From positions 1 through 24,477 of IMG/VR virus record IMGVR_UViG_3300013094_000274: a stretch of 24,477 nucleotides of DNA; one strand, 5' to 3'. The notes under the pieces were generated by a model, which was given only the letters and a program-made list of their open reading frames with translations, searched no databases and was not told where the DNA came from. Every line of letters starts with the position of its first letter. Position 1 is the first letter of the stretch. This DNA is from a virus. Below are positions 4,374 to 12,094 of the stretch, piece by piece. The translations under genes and the position numbers were made by a program.

Positions 4374-4853
4374 TTATAAAGTGTCAAAATCAGCATTTGG
4401 CTTCATTGCAGCTGAGTTTCCTTCAGCAGCTTTTTGTTTAGCATATGCAGTTTTGATTTCCTCAACATTGTCATGTTTAACATAAACATCTTGAGCAGCA
4501 GCATTTTCAGTGTAGATGCTTTTTCTGTAGATAGGCATTCCACCATATGTACAAACAATACCTGTTTTACCTGCTTCTTTAATTCCTTTACTAGGATTTT
4601 TCTCACTAAAAGCTTCTAAGCTTTCAATAATTACAATTTTACCTGGTAATTCTTGATCAGCATAATAACCAGAATCTTCAAGATCAGCAACAGTACCATG
4701 AATTAATGCACTAATGGTAGTTCTTTTCATGAAACCATTGTCATCAAATACATTTTTTACCTGAGCAACACGGATGAATCCAAATTCTGGATTGTTTGAT
4801 AAGTTGATAACAGCACCTGCTTCATTAGCAACAACTTTAACTTTTGAGTTCAT
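4374..4853 (-). CDS. putative single-stranded DNA-binding protein
   Basis: This 159-aa protein has a strand-rich N-terminal two thirds (FGFIRVAQV at 24-32, KRTTISALIHG, LPGKIVIIESL, GMPIYRKSIY) and ends in an acidic tail with terminal DFDTL. A compact strand-rich body followed by a flexible Ala/Lys linker and acidic tip is the usual build of phage and bacterial SSBs, where the tip recruits partners. It has its own terminator and sits among replication genes. The fold is inferred, not matched to a named family, so a different replication accessory protein remains possible. Confidence 0.6.
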   Translation of the reverse strand: MNSKVKVVANEAGAVINLSNNPEFGFIRVAQVKNVFDDNGFMKRTTISALIHGTVADLEDSGYYADQELPGKIVIIESLEAFSEKNPSKGIKEAGKTGIVCTYGGMPIYRKSIYTENAAAQDVYVKHDNVEEIKTAYAKQKAAEGNSAAMKPNADFDTL

Positions 4854-5833: not shown

Positions 5834-6023
5834 CTCTTATTTTATTCAAGAGAGCATCATTAAATGATGTGAACCACTTTTTATTCACCATTTTAGGTTG
5901 AATAGGTTCAATATTGTCTGGGAAATAAGTTGACTTAATTCCTGTTGGTAGGAGATTACTATTCAAATCAACTATATCAGCCTTAAGATTAAACCCTAAG
6001 ACTGATGTTATTATAGTTTTCAT
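5805..6023 (-). CDS. small hypothetical protein
   Basis: This 72-aa protein of unknown function contains KADIVDLNSNLLPTGIKS and a KKWFTSFNDALLNKIRDA helix. It starts in a 4-bp ATGA overlap with the 6020-6346 gene and stops at TAG, one of the few TAG stops in the window. That argues against TAG being reassigned. Confidence 0.7.
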   Translation of the reverse strand: MKTIITSVLGFNLKADIVDLNSNLLPTGIKSTYFPDNIEPIQPKMVNKKWFTSFNDALLNKIRDARSNTYEY

Positions 6024-6346
6024 CTTCTTCTACTTGCCCTTATTGCACCCAATATCCCATCTAAAGGATTACTGTTTTGATGTTCAAGGTAACTATTAAA
6101 GAATTGTAAGATTACAACAACTTCATTGATGTGTTTGCATTGTATTAACATTTCTTGCATAGCTGGTATTTTCTTGTCATTGTTATCACAAGCTTTTATC
6201 ATGATAGCAATTAATTCATCACTTCTTTCTTTTGTGATACCAAGTTTTTGGTATACACCTTTACCTTCTTCATCAATTAACAGTAACTCAAACTTGTTGT
6301 CCTGTGAATATGTTCTAGTGAACAATTTCTTCCATAATTTTTTCAT
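6020..6346 (-). CDS. hypothetical protein, member C of the 'LGIT-ER' paralogue family
   Basis: This 108-aa protein has a basic N-terminus (MKKLWKKLFTRTY), then FELLLIDEEG, LGITKERSDEL and INEVVVILQFF. That order matches the two genes at the left end of the window (125-397 and 394-789). A C-terminal arginine cluster (RASRRR) sets it apart. It is the first gene downstream of the large non-coding region and its terminator, so it needs a promoter in 6347-6370 or read-through from the RNA. Confidence 0.75.
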   Translation of the reverse strand: MKKLWKKLFTRTYSQDNKFELLLIDEEGKGVYQKLGITKERSDELIAIMIKACDNNDKKIPAMQEMLIQCKHINEVVVILQFFNSYLEHQNSNPLDGILGAIRASRRR

Positions 6347-6370
6347 ATGCTTTTCCCTTTTTTAAGCATT

Positions 6371-6401
6371 AAAAAACAGAGCCTATTGCTAAGCTCTGTT
6401 C
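6371..6401 (-). terminator. strong factor-independent terminator at the 3' end of the large non-coding RNA region
   Basis: On the minus strand AACAGAGC (6400-6393) pairs perfectly with GCTCTGTT (6382-6375) over a 10-nt loop and continues into a run of six U. It ends any leftward transcript that crosses the tRNA-like element, and so defines the 3' end of the RNA proposed at 6371-6990. Confidence 0.88.
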
Positions 6402-6492
6402 ATAGTTGTAATGTCACTCACGTAGACTATTCACGCTTGTCTTTCCAAGTTGTCAACCTCAAGCTGTAGTAAGCAGCGGTGTCAGGATTTTG

Positions 6493-6590
6493 TAGTGGGA
6501 GTAGGACTCAAACCTACACCTGCATTTGGCTCCGTTTAGTGTCTAATACCGCGACACATAAGAAGTGTCTATCAATTCCACCATCCCACC
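6493..6590 (-). tRNA. leucine-type tRNA-like element with an abnormal anticodon region
   Basis: The 5' half GGTGGGA-TG-GTGGAATTGATAGACAC is a typical class II (Leu) acceptor and D-arm. The 3' half has a perfect T-arm (GTAGG-TTTGAGT-CCTAC), and TCCCACT closes a 7-bp acceptor stem with one G-U pair. CCA is not encoded. At 98 nt it is about 13 nt too long for Leu. The middle offers competing hairpins: GACAC/GTGTC around TTCTTAT, a shifted GTGTC/GACAC, and TTAG-ACA-CTAA. None gives a standard anticodon arm plus variable arm. It may be a degenerate tRNA, a tRNA with an insertion, or a tRNA-like domain of the surrounding RNA. The anticodon cannot be assigned. Confidence 0.6.
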
Positions 6591-6993
6591 ATAAATAACA
6601 GGAAGCAACCTGTTCAGATTGTAAAGAATAAATTAAATAATCTACCACGCAATAACCCTCCTTCTGATCTTCAACGCGCGGACATTAACCTCAATTTGCA
6701 ACCCATGCCTTTGAGCCAATCTGTTTTGTAGTTTTATGTTTTCACATCTACATGACTTTAACTACAAAAGTTCTTGCGTTAATTTAATTCCACACACCGG
6801 AATAAGGCTGAGAAATCCTCTGTGTTGCCTGACACTCGCAGTACCTGCCTTAATTCAGTCTTAATTAGTATTCCTTTCTCAAGGGAACAAAACACATAAC
6901 CAGTCGCTCGCTTTAGAGTCAGTCGCCCAGTGTATAGCAACGCATATACAAAGGACAACACAGGAATCTTTGTACCTGTACTGGTTATTTTTT

Positions 6994-7341
6994 TTAGTTT
7001 GTTAAAGCATCTTTCTCTGCTTTAAGGAAATCTAATGTAAATGTGTGGTCTACAAGATTTTCTTTAACAGTTTCTAATGCAGCTTTAGCATTGATTAAGT
7101 TCTCAATGTATTTAGTCCTGTCAGCAATAGGTTGACCATTGTTAATTCTTGCATTGTTTAAAGCTTCTGTTGCTTCTTCAACAGCATCTTCTAACTGAAT
7201 TAAATCTCCAGTCATGTTAGATATTTGAACATCTAATGCAGAGTTGGCAGATCTCCAAGCTTTTTCAGCTTGTACTTGAGCATTATCTCCTGTTACTTTA
7301 GCAATGAATTGTTTAACAAAACTTGTTGTGTTTGTTTTCAT
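6994..7341 (-). CDS. coiled-coil hypothetical protein
   Basis: This 115-aa, almost fully helical protein has long heptad-like stretches (LIQLEDAVEEATEALNNARIN and YIENLINAKAALETVKENL). It is probably a cytoplasmic coiled-coil oligomer. I know no function, though it resembles small coiled-coil proteins seen in Bacteroidetes phages. It has its own candidate promoter at 7364-7371 and is the last gene before the structured RNA region, which may therefore be transcribed from the same promoter. Confidence 0.8.
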   Translation of the reverse strand: MKTNTTSFVKQFIAKVTGDNAQVQAEKAWRSANSALDVQISNMTGDLIQLEDAVEEATEALNNARINNGQPIADRTKYIENLINAKAALETVKENLVDHTFTLDFLKAEKDALTN

Positions 7342-10285: not shown

Positions 10286-10627
10286 GGTACTTTATGTTTA
10301 TTAGTTAGTGATATTGATAGTTCCGGTAGCCCTTACTGTCAACTTCTATCTCTCTAATGTAATAGATAAGATAATAGTAAAGGTGATAATATAGTGTTAT
10401 ACTGATTAGTATAGTTGTACTGTTATTAATGTGTGAATGCCTACTCTAGCTATATAAAATGTGTAGTCTGAGCTAGTTAGAGGAATCTGTAGTATCAAGA
10501 TGTAGTAAAGATGTAAGGAGAGTTTGACACTCCCAAACAACTTCTCACCCTCTTTAACACAATTTTTAACTACATAAGTTTCAATTAGTTACAATTACTT
10601 AATCTGTCACAGCTTCATTAGTTATTC

Positions 10628-10644
10628 AATTGTTGATAACTACT
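10628..10644. repeat. 17-bp direct repeat, copy 1, with a DnaA-box-like core
   Basis: AATTGTTGATAACTACT occurs here and at 10751-10767. Its core TGTTGATAA is the reverse complement of TTATCAACA, one mismatch from the DnaA box TTATCCACA. Copy spacing is 123 bp. Confidence 0.7.
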
Positions 10645-10750
10645 GTTGATATCATAACTAGTTGATTAACAGTGTTAACAACTAAATCAGGTGCTACCTC
10701 TCCACCGTGTAGATAAAACTTCAATTGACAATTAGCTTAAAAACAATAAT

Positions 10751-10767
10751 AATTGTTGATAACTACT
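10751..10767. repeat. 17-bp direct repeat, copy 2, with a DnaA-box-like core
   Basis: This is identical to the copy at 10628-10644 and in the same orientation. The surrounding DNA is AT-rich and repeats GTTAAC-like words. A third TTATCAACA, inverted, lies at 12110-12118 just before the first right-arm gene. Confidence 0.7.
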
Positions 10768-10889
10768 CCATGGGCTTTAGAGTTAACATGATTAACATAT
10801 AAAAAAGATAACTATCAGCTTAAAGCAATTGGCATGTTTAATGACAATTGCAAATTCTGTAAAGGGTTAGCAAAGAATAGGGAAGACTT

Positions 10890-10918
10890 GTAAAAAAGAA
10901 ACTACCCTTTCGGGTAGT
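10890..10918 (-). terminator. factor-independent terminator after the 10928-11350 gene
   Basis: On the minus strand ACTACCC-GAAA-GGGTAGT (10918-10901) is a perfect 7-bp stem with a GNRA loop, followed by TTCTTTTTT. It makes the 10928-11350 gene a separate unit and shields the AT-rich block from its transcription. Confidence 0.88.
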
Positions 10919-10927
10919 CTCTCTTAC

Positions 10928-11350: not shown

Positions 11351-11399
11351 AACTTTTTTTGTTTTTGGTTAATTAATAATTGTTATCCAATTAAGTTAA

Positions 11400-11606
11400 G
11401 GGTTAGAAAAAGATAGGGTCTGTGCAATGAGGTTAGTTACAGCAAGCCAAGCAAACTTTTTCTCCGGTAGGAAAAAGTTAATTGGCGCAGCTGTATGCAA
11501 GCCAGCAGGGCAAAGGCATAGGGGGTACCCCGAAGATTTATCTGAGGGGGGAGGCTTGCAGTGGGGGGCACCAACATCCTACTGCCTATAATAAATCCCC
11601 TAACCC
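11400..11606. ncRNA. candidate compact structured, G-rich RNA element
   Basis: A 7-bp closing helix GGGTTAG/CTAACCC (11400-11406 with 11600-11606) encloses a perfect 9-bp hairpin AACTTTTTC/GAAAAAGTT (11454-11462 with 11471-11479) and an 8-bp helix TGCAAGCC/GGCTTGCA (11496-11503 with 11553-11560). GATTTAT inside the latter (11535-11541) matches ATAAATC outside it (11591-11597), a possible pseudoknot. A second GCAAGCC (11442-11448) could compete for GGCTTGC, which would allow switching. Four G-runs (11508, 11521, 11546, 11563) could form a long-loop quadruplex. No frame is coding. The strand is unclear: on minus it would be the leader of the 10928-11350 gene. Confidence 0.45.
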
Positions 11607-11646
11607 ATAAGCTCATATAACCATTAGTAAAGCTCTCACAACTGTA

Positions 11647-11676
11647 TTACCATTTGGTAAGTTACTATGTGGTAAC
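11647..11676. promoter_or_regulatory. two adjacent dyads, possible operators of the divergent control region
   Basis: TTACCA-TT-TGGTAA (11647-11660) is directly followed by GTTAC-TATGTG-GTAAC (11661-11676). Both share the half-site GGTAA[C/G]. They lie 69-98 bp upstream of the right-facing promoter box at 11745 and between the two transcription arms, as expected for repressor or activator sites. Confidence 0.45.
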
Positions 11677-11744
11677 ATAAGGGCCAAAGAGCGCGGGGCT
11701 AAATTAAAAAGTATCTACTTCTACCTTAGAATAAAAAAATGTGT

Positions 11745-11752
11745 TATATTTG
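11745..11752 (+). promoter_or_regulatory. Bacteroidetes-type -7 box (right-facing promoter 1)
   Basis: TATATTTG is a perfect TAnnTTTG box within TTATATTTGTG, nearly identical to the box at 12087. Transcription would start near 11758 and meet the terminator at 11798-11832 first, then the tRNA-Trp. No protein gene lies directly behind it. Confidence 0.6.
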
Positions 11753-11797
11753 TGCTATGTCATTTTAGGTACTGTTTCCGCTTTAGCCTAATATGTT

Positions 11798-11832
11798 AAA
11801 CCCCGGTACCCTTGTCTAAGCCGGGGTTTTTT
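11798..11832 (+). terminator. strong terminator between right-facing promoter 1 and tRNA-Trp
   Basis: AAACCCCGG (11798-11806) pairs perfectly with CCGGGGTTT (11821-11829) over a 14-nt loop, followed by a run of six T. It would release a leader RNA of about 75 nt from promoter 1 or attenuate tRNA-Trp expression, unless the tRNA has a promoter I cannot see. Confidence 0.85.
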
Positions 11833-11834
11833 AT

Positions 11835-11907
11835 GCAGGTGTAGTTCAATTGGTAGAGCACTGGTCTCCAAAACCAGTAGTTGTAGGTTCGAGTCCTTCC
11901 ATCTGTG
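11835..11907 (+). tRNA. trnW: tRNA-Trp (anticodon CCA)
   Basis: This is a complete 73-nt cloverleaf. The acceptor GCAGGTG/CATCTGT has two G-U pairs, the D-arm is GTTC..GAGC, and the anticodon stem CTGGT/ACCAG holds loop CTCCAAA, giving CCA. The T-arm is GTAGG-TTCGAGT-CCTTC with one U-U mismatch, and the discriminator is G. CCA is not encoded. Anticodon CCA reads UGG only, so this tRNA does not suppress UGA. It starts 2 nt after the terminator. Confidence 0.93.
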
Positions 11908-11919
11908 CAACTCCCCTGT

Positions 11920-11976
11920 GGATAGTATCTGCAGGTCAAGTACCAGGAGGCATACCGTAAGATCTGCTCACTATCT
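11920..11976 (+). ncRNA. small hairpin RNA element between tRNA-Trp and the next terminator
   Basis: GGATAGT (11920-11926) pairs with ACTATCT (11970-11976), with one terminal G-U, to form a 7-bp acceptor-like stem enclosing 43 nt. No T-arm or anticodon arm is visible, so it is not a normal tRNA. It would be co-transcribed with tRNA-Trp up to the terminator at 12024-12070 and may guide tRNA 3' processing or be a small RNA. Confidence 0.35.
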
Positions 11977-12023
11977 CTGGTCTTTTCTGTTAGTGGGAAA
12001 GTAGTTATTATATAACCATTGAC

Positions 12024-12070
12024 AAGCCCAAGTAAGTTTCTCTGATCAAGAATTACTGCTTGGGTTTTTT
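12024..12070 (+). terminator. factor-independent terminator of the tRNA-Trp transcript
   Basis: AAGCCCAAGTAA (12024-12035) pairs with TTACTGCTTGGG (12053-12064) with a small asymmetry, and is followed by a run of six T. It closes the tRNA unit just upstream of right-facing promoter 2. Confidence 0.8.
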
Positions 12071-12086
12071 ATTTAGAAAAGTTTTT

Positions 12087-12094
12087 TATATTTG
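12087..12094 (+). promoter_or_regulatory. Bacteroidetes-type -7 box (right-facing promoter 2)
   Basis: TATATTTG is a perfect TAnnTTTG box, 24 bp before the ATG at 12119, with an expected start near 12100. The leader would contain the DnaA-box-like word TTATCAACA at 12110-12118. It should drive the cluster 12119-14485. Confidence 0.7.

Follow-up and report, generated by a model that had tools for sequence, protein, structure and literature searches.

GOLLD and ROOL are long-standing orphans of RNA biology. GOLLD is a large RNA of phages and prophages that occurs near tRNAs, some examples having tRNAs in a linker, and ROOL, also large, of phage origin and without a known function, often lies near tRNA islands; kissing loops are described for both (PMC12286853). 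The RNA analysed here is, we would say, of a kind already known, namely the large phage RNA of unknown function. Its modular make-up has no parallel in the descriptions of that kind found in the open-access literature. The same literature, outside which lie most subscription papers and preprints, gave no description of phage tRNA-like arrays or of RNAs such as this one.

The locus lies in a linear IMG/VR virus record of 24,477 bases (IMGVR_UViG_3300013094_000274), which was analysed over its whole length and is here called the window. Minus-strand ORFs at 6020-6346 and 6994-7341 flank a stretch without a convincing gene, with a GC content of 0.38-0.40 compared to about 0.30 in the surroundings. 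An earlier note, made from the window sequence alone, had drawn attention to this 620-nt gap and proposed that it encodes a large structured RNA on the minus strand. The comparative evidence supports this proposal, including the strand, which is right because every homologous domain matches there. Judged by comparison, the gap is a real structured RNA of about 600 letters, a chain of separately folding domains that is predicted to encode no protein. The domains, in order from the 5' end of the RNA (B, A, G, H, tRNA-like, E, F, terminator), are preceded below by the whole RNA. Labels of the type L110 denote other sequences in the comparison.

6371..6988, minus strand: whole structured RNA; bounds from homologous domains and the terminator, with a presumptive 5' end
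6896..6988, minus strand: domain B; 91.5% identity to L110 across 130 nt that run into the start of A; compensatory changes in L110 and L157
6802..6895, minus strand: domain A; covariance model R1 match at 6894-6802; pair counts; at least 110 non-redundant loci
6724..6803, minus strand: domain G; homologues in L013, L164 and L171
6597..6723, minus strand: domain H; motif matches in viral stretches
6493..6590, minus strand: tRNA-like domain; Rfam tRNA, 33.0 bits
6452..6487, minus strand: domain E; linker AAUCCUGACA..GCUG/CAGC..UUGAGGUUGACA between the tRNA-like and F; homologues in L160, L161 and L174
6436..6454, minus strand: domain F; hairpin GACAACUUG-GAAAGA-CAAG; compensatory versions elsewhere
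6371..6399, minus strand: intrinsic terminator ACAGAGC..GCUCUGU-U6; from sequence, with a stable hairpin in the MFE fold; conserved in L003/L004

The terminator, also pointed out in the earlier note, is a strong hairpin followed by U6 (6399-6371), with near-identical copies in L004 and L003; it is absent from the list produced by a consensus terminator scan. Folding energy was left out as evidence, since the z-scores for the whole RNA are weak and alike on both strands (-1.85 minus, -2.23 plus). A search for relatives of the neighbouring protein (6023-6346) found none. DNA similarity searches against annotated phages gave only short, weak matches for the whole RNA, and none for the A-G-M-H stretch of L171. 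The overlap contig L002/L100 is 99.98% identical to the window over 8.8 kb and covers part of the RNA only; it is practically the same phage and provides no independent evidence. The window phage is taken to be a tailed phage; its host probably belongs to the Bacteroidota, judging from phage phi14:2 (below) and the promoter-like motifs. The window contains two more long non-coding stretches (10286-10927 and 11351-12091), both conserved in L003/L004, the second containing a tRNA-Trp (11835-11908) and a GC-richer part resembling L174.

The earlier note had regarded the RNA as a member of, or an analogue to, the GOLLD and ROOL classes. Positions 6300-7100 were therefore compared by cmscan with all 4227 families of Rfam 15 (E<=10, relaxed filters). 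Only tRNA rose above chance, and there was no match to GOLLD, ROOL, OLE, HEARO or tmRNA. At Rfam gathering scores the homologous loci matched only tRNA and tmRNA, with no ROOL, and no tmRNA gene was called in the window. Membership is not supported, as GOLLD and ROOL gave no covariance-model match and show no relation to the window RNA in sequence or domain order. What stands is the analogy, which is a fair one in size, phage origin, loop-loop contacts and tRNA association.

Domain A carries most of the comparative evidence. It is predicted to consist of a closing helix P1 (6895-6888/6827-6822, with a UU bulge; GUGUUG/CAACAC), hairpin 1 (6887-6871; UUCC/GGAA) followed by a joining piece, a variable P2 region (6870-6828) with a hairpin beside P1, and hairpin 2 (6820-6804; GAGG/CCUC). 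The layout is GUGUUG-UUCC[CUUGAGAAA]GGAA-P2-CAACAC-A-GAGG[UUCUCA]CCUC. Loop 1 (UGAGAA) is complementary to loop 2 (UUCUCA), giving a loop-loop pairing of 6881-6876 with 6814-6809. A bulged 9-bp helix 6856/6800, proposed earlier, is unsupported because it cuts across the conserved P1 and hairpin 2.

The exact 18-mer GTTCCCTTGAGAAAGGAA from domain A occurs in at least 120 IMG/VR stretches, and at least 110 loci are non-redundant by a simple shared-25-mer filter, beyond which some may still be related. Tandem copies are seen among the IMG/VR matches listed. A chance origin of the 18-mer was considered and rejected: 257 Gb of prokaryote genomes contain it 16 times, the flanking structure being missing from 14 of these copies and present in two, which come from metagenome-assembled genomes. 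Covariance model R1 matches the window at 57.3 bits (E 1.5e-10), and was built without it, the window, L002 and L100 all being outside the 25 sequences of alignment A1. In the domain A alignment (25 sequences) 98.5% of cells are paired, and the covariation score was reached by none of 500 shuffles and lies above every slid version. Both strands of P1 are changed in L094/L109 (GCGUUG/CAACGC), L124, L132, L130 and L056. Two-sided changes are also seen in hairpin 1 (phage phi14:2, UCAC/GUGG; L115) and in hairpin 2 (L119; L031). In L109 two pairs of the loop-loop contact differ, A-U being replaced by G-C and G-C by A-U, at the price of one U-U mismatch. All the predicted pairings, namely P1, the two hairpins and the contact between their loops, are supported by these compensatory changes. 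The P2 region was at one stage read as a hypervariable insert, and this reading was rejected, P2 being largely an ordinary variable hairpin: at least 5 bp form next to P1 in 66 of 109 inserts, against a mean of 33 and a maximum of 46 in 40 rounds of shuffling.

Copies of domain A occur in two settings. By spacing rules that were written after the pattern was seen, a tRNA or tRNA-like begins no more than 45 nt away in 37 of 71 class 1 cases, and no more than 250 nt away in 55 of them (random positions, 106/1240). The distance after hairpin 2 is mostly 3-6 nt, with a second peak at about 90-119 nt where another domain lies in between. Class 2 copies lie downstream of a promoter-like sequence and have further helices 3'; in phi14:2, L040 and L088 a phage tmRNA gene comes next. 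Certain P2 inserts are common to both classes. In Cellulophaga phage phi14:2 (L153, KC821624; 2913-3365 and 4031-4500), the class-2 RNA lies opposite the annotated small hypothetical proteins gp007-gp009. The tmRNA downstream of it (tag GSSVQKLAMVA, ARAGORN) is absent from the annotation of the record.

The other domains were analysed in the same manner, and covariation in homologous regions, which the earlier note had named as a check, was found for A, B, F and G. Domain B consists of an outer helix (6988-6980/6904-6896) and a hairpin (ACAGG/CCUGU, 6979-6960), whose loop UACAAAG can pair with CUUUGUA at 6953-6947. The outer helix had been predicted previously as a 9-bp pairing, and holds up well: a C-G pair becomes U-A in L110, and two pairs are compensated in L157. 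The only matches to an exact 21-mer of this domain were in L110 and the overlap contig of the window itself. Domain G begins with a hairpin (AUUCC/GGAAU, 6803-6787) whose loop is predicted to pair with ACGCA at 6779-6775, forming a pseudoknot. The two strands are UGCGU/ACGCA in L171, and are altered yet still complementary in L164 (CAUGGGG/CUCCGUG) and L013 (CACUGGGG/ACUCAGUG). The pseudoknot is followed by a 10-bp stem (6769-6760/6733-6724) with a GAAA hairpin (6747-6736). This stem, also noted earlier, is supported by L013 (UGAAGUU/AACUUCA), the apical GAAA hairpin being swapped for other hairpins elsewhere. A 6-bp long-range helix 6779/6647, likewise proposed earlier, did not survive the comparison. 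Its ACGCA strand is engaged in the pseudoknot with the domain G hairpin loop (L171, L164, L013), and its UUGCGU half sits in domain H, which is present without G in L163/L168.

Domain H has the same layout as A: a closing helix (6723-6717/6621-6615), a hairpin (6716-6701), a variable insert and a second hairpin (6614-6597), with loop AGGCA (6710-6706) complementary to UGCUU (6607-6603). It was found in 20 viral stretches by one motif, and by another in 17, a few of them by chance. The copies are nearly invariant (98.1% of cells paired), which leaves little for covariation. Domain E has GCC/GGC in L160, L161 and L174 in place of the GCUG/CAGC of the window. Domain F has compensatory versions in L031 (GCUCG/CGAGC) and L174 (CCAG/CUGG), and is found at the same locus in L003, L004, L005 and L013. 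Comparison thus shows that the base pairs of the domains are kept by selection. The possibility that the gap is a short protein-coding region has next to no probability. An open frame of 60 codons starting with GTG is listed at 6961-6779, but the variable parts of the relatives carry insertions of any length, and conservation tracks base pairs and not codons.

The tRNA-like domain that the earlier note had perceived lies at 6590-6493 on the minus strand. It matches Rfam tRNA at 33.0 bits (gathering score 29, E 6e-5) in a scan of a small stretch, and was missed in whole-window scans. It has an acceptor stem (6590-6584/6500-6494), a D arm, a T arm (6517-6501) and a discriminator A6493. An insert with a hairpin (6557-6539) replaces the anticodon arm: the element lacks an arm with a 5-bp stem and a 7-nt loop, and ARAGORN calls nothing there with or without introns. 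A normal tRNA with an intron was considered and rejected for this reason, and for the inconsistent anticodons in relatives.

Under a rule that requires acceptor, D and T arms and that was written after the pattern was seen, the domain-A loci (110 among the matches listed) contain 96 unique tRNA-likes of at least 96 nt, 62 of them with the identical acceptor AGTCAGG. A canonical anticodon stem is present in 4.5% of 89 tRNA-likes of the AGTCAGG family, compared to 81% of 321 ordinary tRNAs, these being of ordinary length with other acceptors, selected by the same rule from the same loci. The inserts recur as small families, with some stems compensated, and some are common to different contexts. 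Judged by its arms, the window element is a member of this oversized class, in which the acceptor, D and T arms are fixed while a structured insert takes the place of the anticodon arm. Its acceptor (GGTGGGA/TCCCACT) is unlike that of the AGTCAGG class, and it has a G-U first pair, A73, C74 and a weak model score. The flanking nucleotides of tRNA-likes resemble those of ordinary tRNAs (U at -1 in 85% and 70%, respectively; C74 in 99% of both), which suggests tRNA-type processing. Despite the near-constant C74, CCA is encoded in few of the ordinary tRNAs or tRNA-likes of these phages.

Long phage arrays in L099 (1-6100), L091 and L044 mix ordinary tRNAs with many anticodon-less tRNA-likes. They also contain further recurrent, structured-looking modules (e.g. 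GATAGTGGTTTTCCCCA... and AACTTCAGTTCCCATAC...) that have no Rfam match. Close to arrays, in L127, L099 and further array loci, the sequence GTTCTTTGACATATTGG is found repeatedly; it is similar to a boxA antitermination signal. Tenacibaculum phage pT24 (L154, 5278-6235) has an annotated tRNA-Sup, two tRNA-Undet and a tRNA-Pro, and may hold the same kind of tRNA-like. The occurrence of so many anticodon-less tRNA-likes in phage tRNA arrays, their inserts differing while the acceptor stem stays fixed, could point to a role as decoys or shields where host defences target tRNAs or translation; the tRNA-likes would bind tRNA-handling factors while escaping anticodon nucleases. Such a role leaves domains A, B, G and H unexplained, and we consider it rather improbable.

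A search of IMG/VR with the neighbouring protein at 4377-4853 gave 14 relatives. Where the window has its RNA, L005 and L013 have one that agrees with it in a 5' motif, a tRNA-like and a 3' hairpin; in L004 there is just a tRNA-like with the 3' part (F and terminator); L003 has only the 3' hairpin (F) and terminator; and L007/L009 have a single oversized tRNA-like. This differing content indicates that a cassette has been gained and lost here, and that the RNA is dispensable in L003 and L004, where it is missing or reduced. Because the terminator is directly upstream of the 108-aa gene (6346-6020), and F and the terminator are kept before the same gene in L003 and L004, the RNA might be a cis-regulatory leader or attenuator that controls read-through into that gene. 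However, the same domains precede unrelated genes elsewhere, or sit in tRNA arrays without such a gene, which makes this very unlikely.

Other phages contain each domain of the window RNA again, and optional domains come and go. Retrieved units with both A and H keep the order (B)-A-(N,G,K,M)-H-tRNA-like-(E,F); A is upstream of H in every one of them, and a tRNA-like often follows directly after H. Domain H is also seen without A, or without a tRNA-like after it, and L163/L168 have H alone. The recurrence of domains in the same relative order, with optional gain and loss, indicates that the RNA evolves by domain shuffling, and the presence of the same domains in new combinations in more than 100 other phage sequences suggests that large RNAs are built from a shared kit. 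Selfish mobile structured elements, inserting by tRNA genes and kept only by their own spread, would also explain why close relatives differ in whether one locus is occupied, as well as the tandem copies, the placement beside tRNA ends and the inserts common to different contexts. We consider this quite improbable, since independent insertions would hardly give the constant order B-A-(G,K,M,N)-H-tRNA-like-E-F that many phages have.

A self-assembling RNA similar to GOLLD or ROOL, for which a homo-oligomeric nanocage is characteristic, forming one particle through intermolecular loop contacts and with the tRNA-like as a domain or cargo, is a more serious proposal, which we nevertheless regard as unlikely. 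The size, phage origin and tRNA neighbourhood are similar, GOLLD and ROOL have kissing loops and GOLLD has linker tRNAs (PMC12286853), and in both A and H the loop of the last hairpin is complementary to a loop further inside the domain. However, the paired loops of A close within one domain, which suits a contact inside the molecule, and the occurrence of domains alone or recombined (H in L163/L168; A directly before ordinary tRNAs) is unlike one fixed particle.

On the basis of these observations, we hypothesise that the best explanation is a multi-domain phage RNA built by domain shuffling and punctuated by tRNA-likes, to which we give a probability of about 0.6. The RNA would be transcribed leftward with the surrounding genes as an operon, and would end at its own terminator at 6371. 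The tRNA-like would keep the features read by tRNA-processing enzymes, having lost the anticodon arm, and so serve as punctuation: host RNase P would cut at 6591/6590, and the 3' side would be trimmed, freeing the B-A-G-H (about 400 nt) and E-F parts. The G-U first pair and the weak model score of the element in the window count against this explanation. In tRNA arrays, the same arrangement could yield many such RNAs from one transcript. As a guess from the tRNA context, and the least certain step, the freed domains might bind components of the translation or defence machinery during infection. The broader proposal, to which we give somewhat less than even odds, is of a new phage RNA group with at least eight shared, shuffled domains, in which anticodon-less tRNA-likes act as punctuation for RNase P and 3'-end processing, so that one transcript gives many structured RNAs in infected Bacteroidota.

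The window RNA would thus add a further widespread group to GOLLD and ROOL, with nothing in Rfam 15 but tRNA, with covariation support and with a clear domain grammar. The many natural combinations make each domain separately testable, and the related class-2 form in the cultured phage phi14:2 provides a laboratory system for expression. The question raised is whether phages rely on tRNA-processing enzymes to excise structured RNAs from long transcripts.

Internal tRNA-likes act as cut sites for RNase P and RNase Z in MALAT1/mascRNA and in viral tRNA-pre-miRNA transcripts. These systems are eukaryotic or from animal viruses, and no homology to them is claimed for the window RNA, whose processing is a proposal. 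tmRNA (SsrA) also has a tRNA-like part without a normal anticodon arm, as well as pseudoknots, and its genes are found near the class-2 RNAs noted above. However, the tRNA-like of tmRNA joins the two ends of the molecule, whereas that of the window appears closed at both ends inside the RNA. ROOL is likewise a large phage RNA with a tRNA neighbourhood, and differs in its domain order and motifs. GOLLD resembles the window RNA in being large, of phage origin, near tRNAs and with loop-loop contacts, its association with phages and tRNAs being paralleled here by the virus record, the internal tRNA-like and the homologues in tRNA arrays. Unlike GOLLD, the window RNA has a tRNA-like without an anticodon arm, and its other domains are shuffled between contexts.
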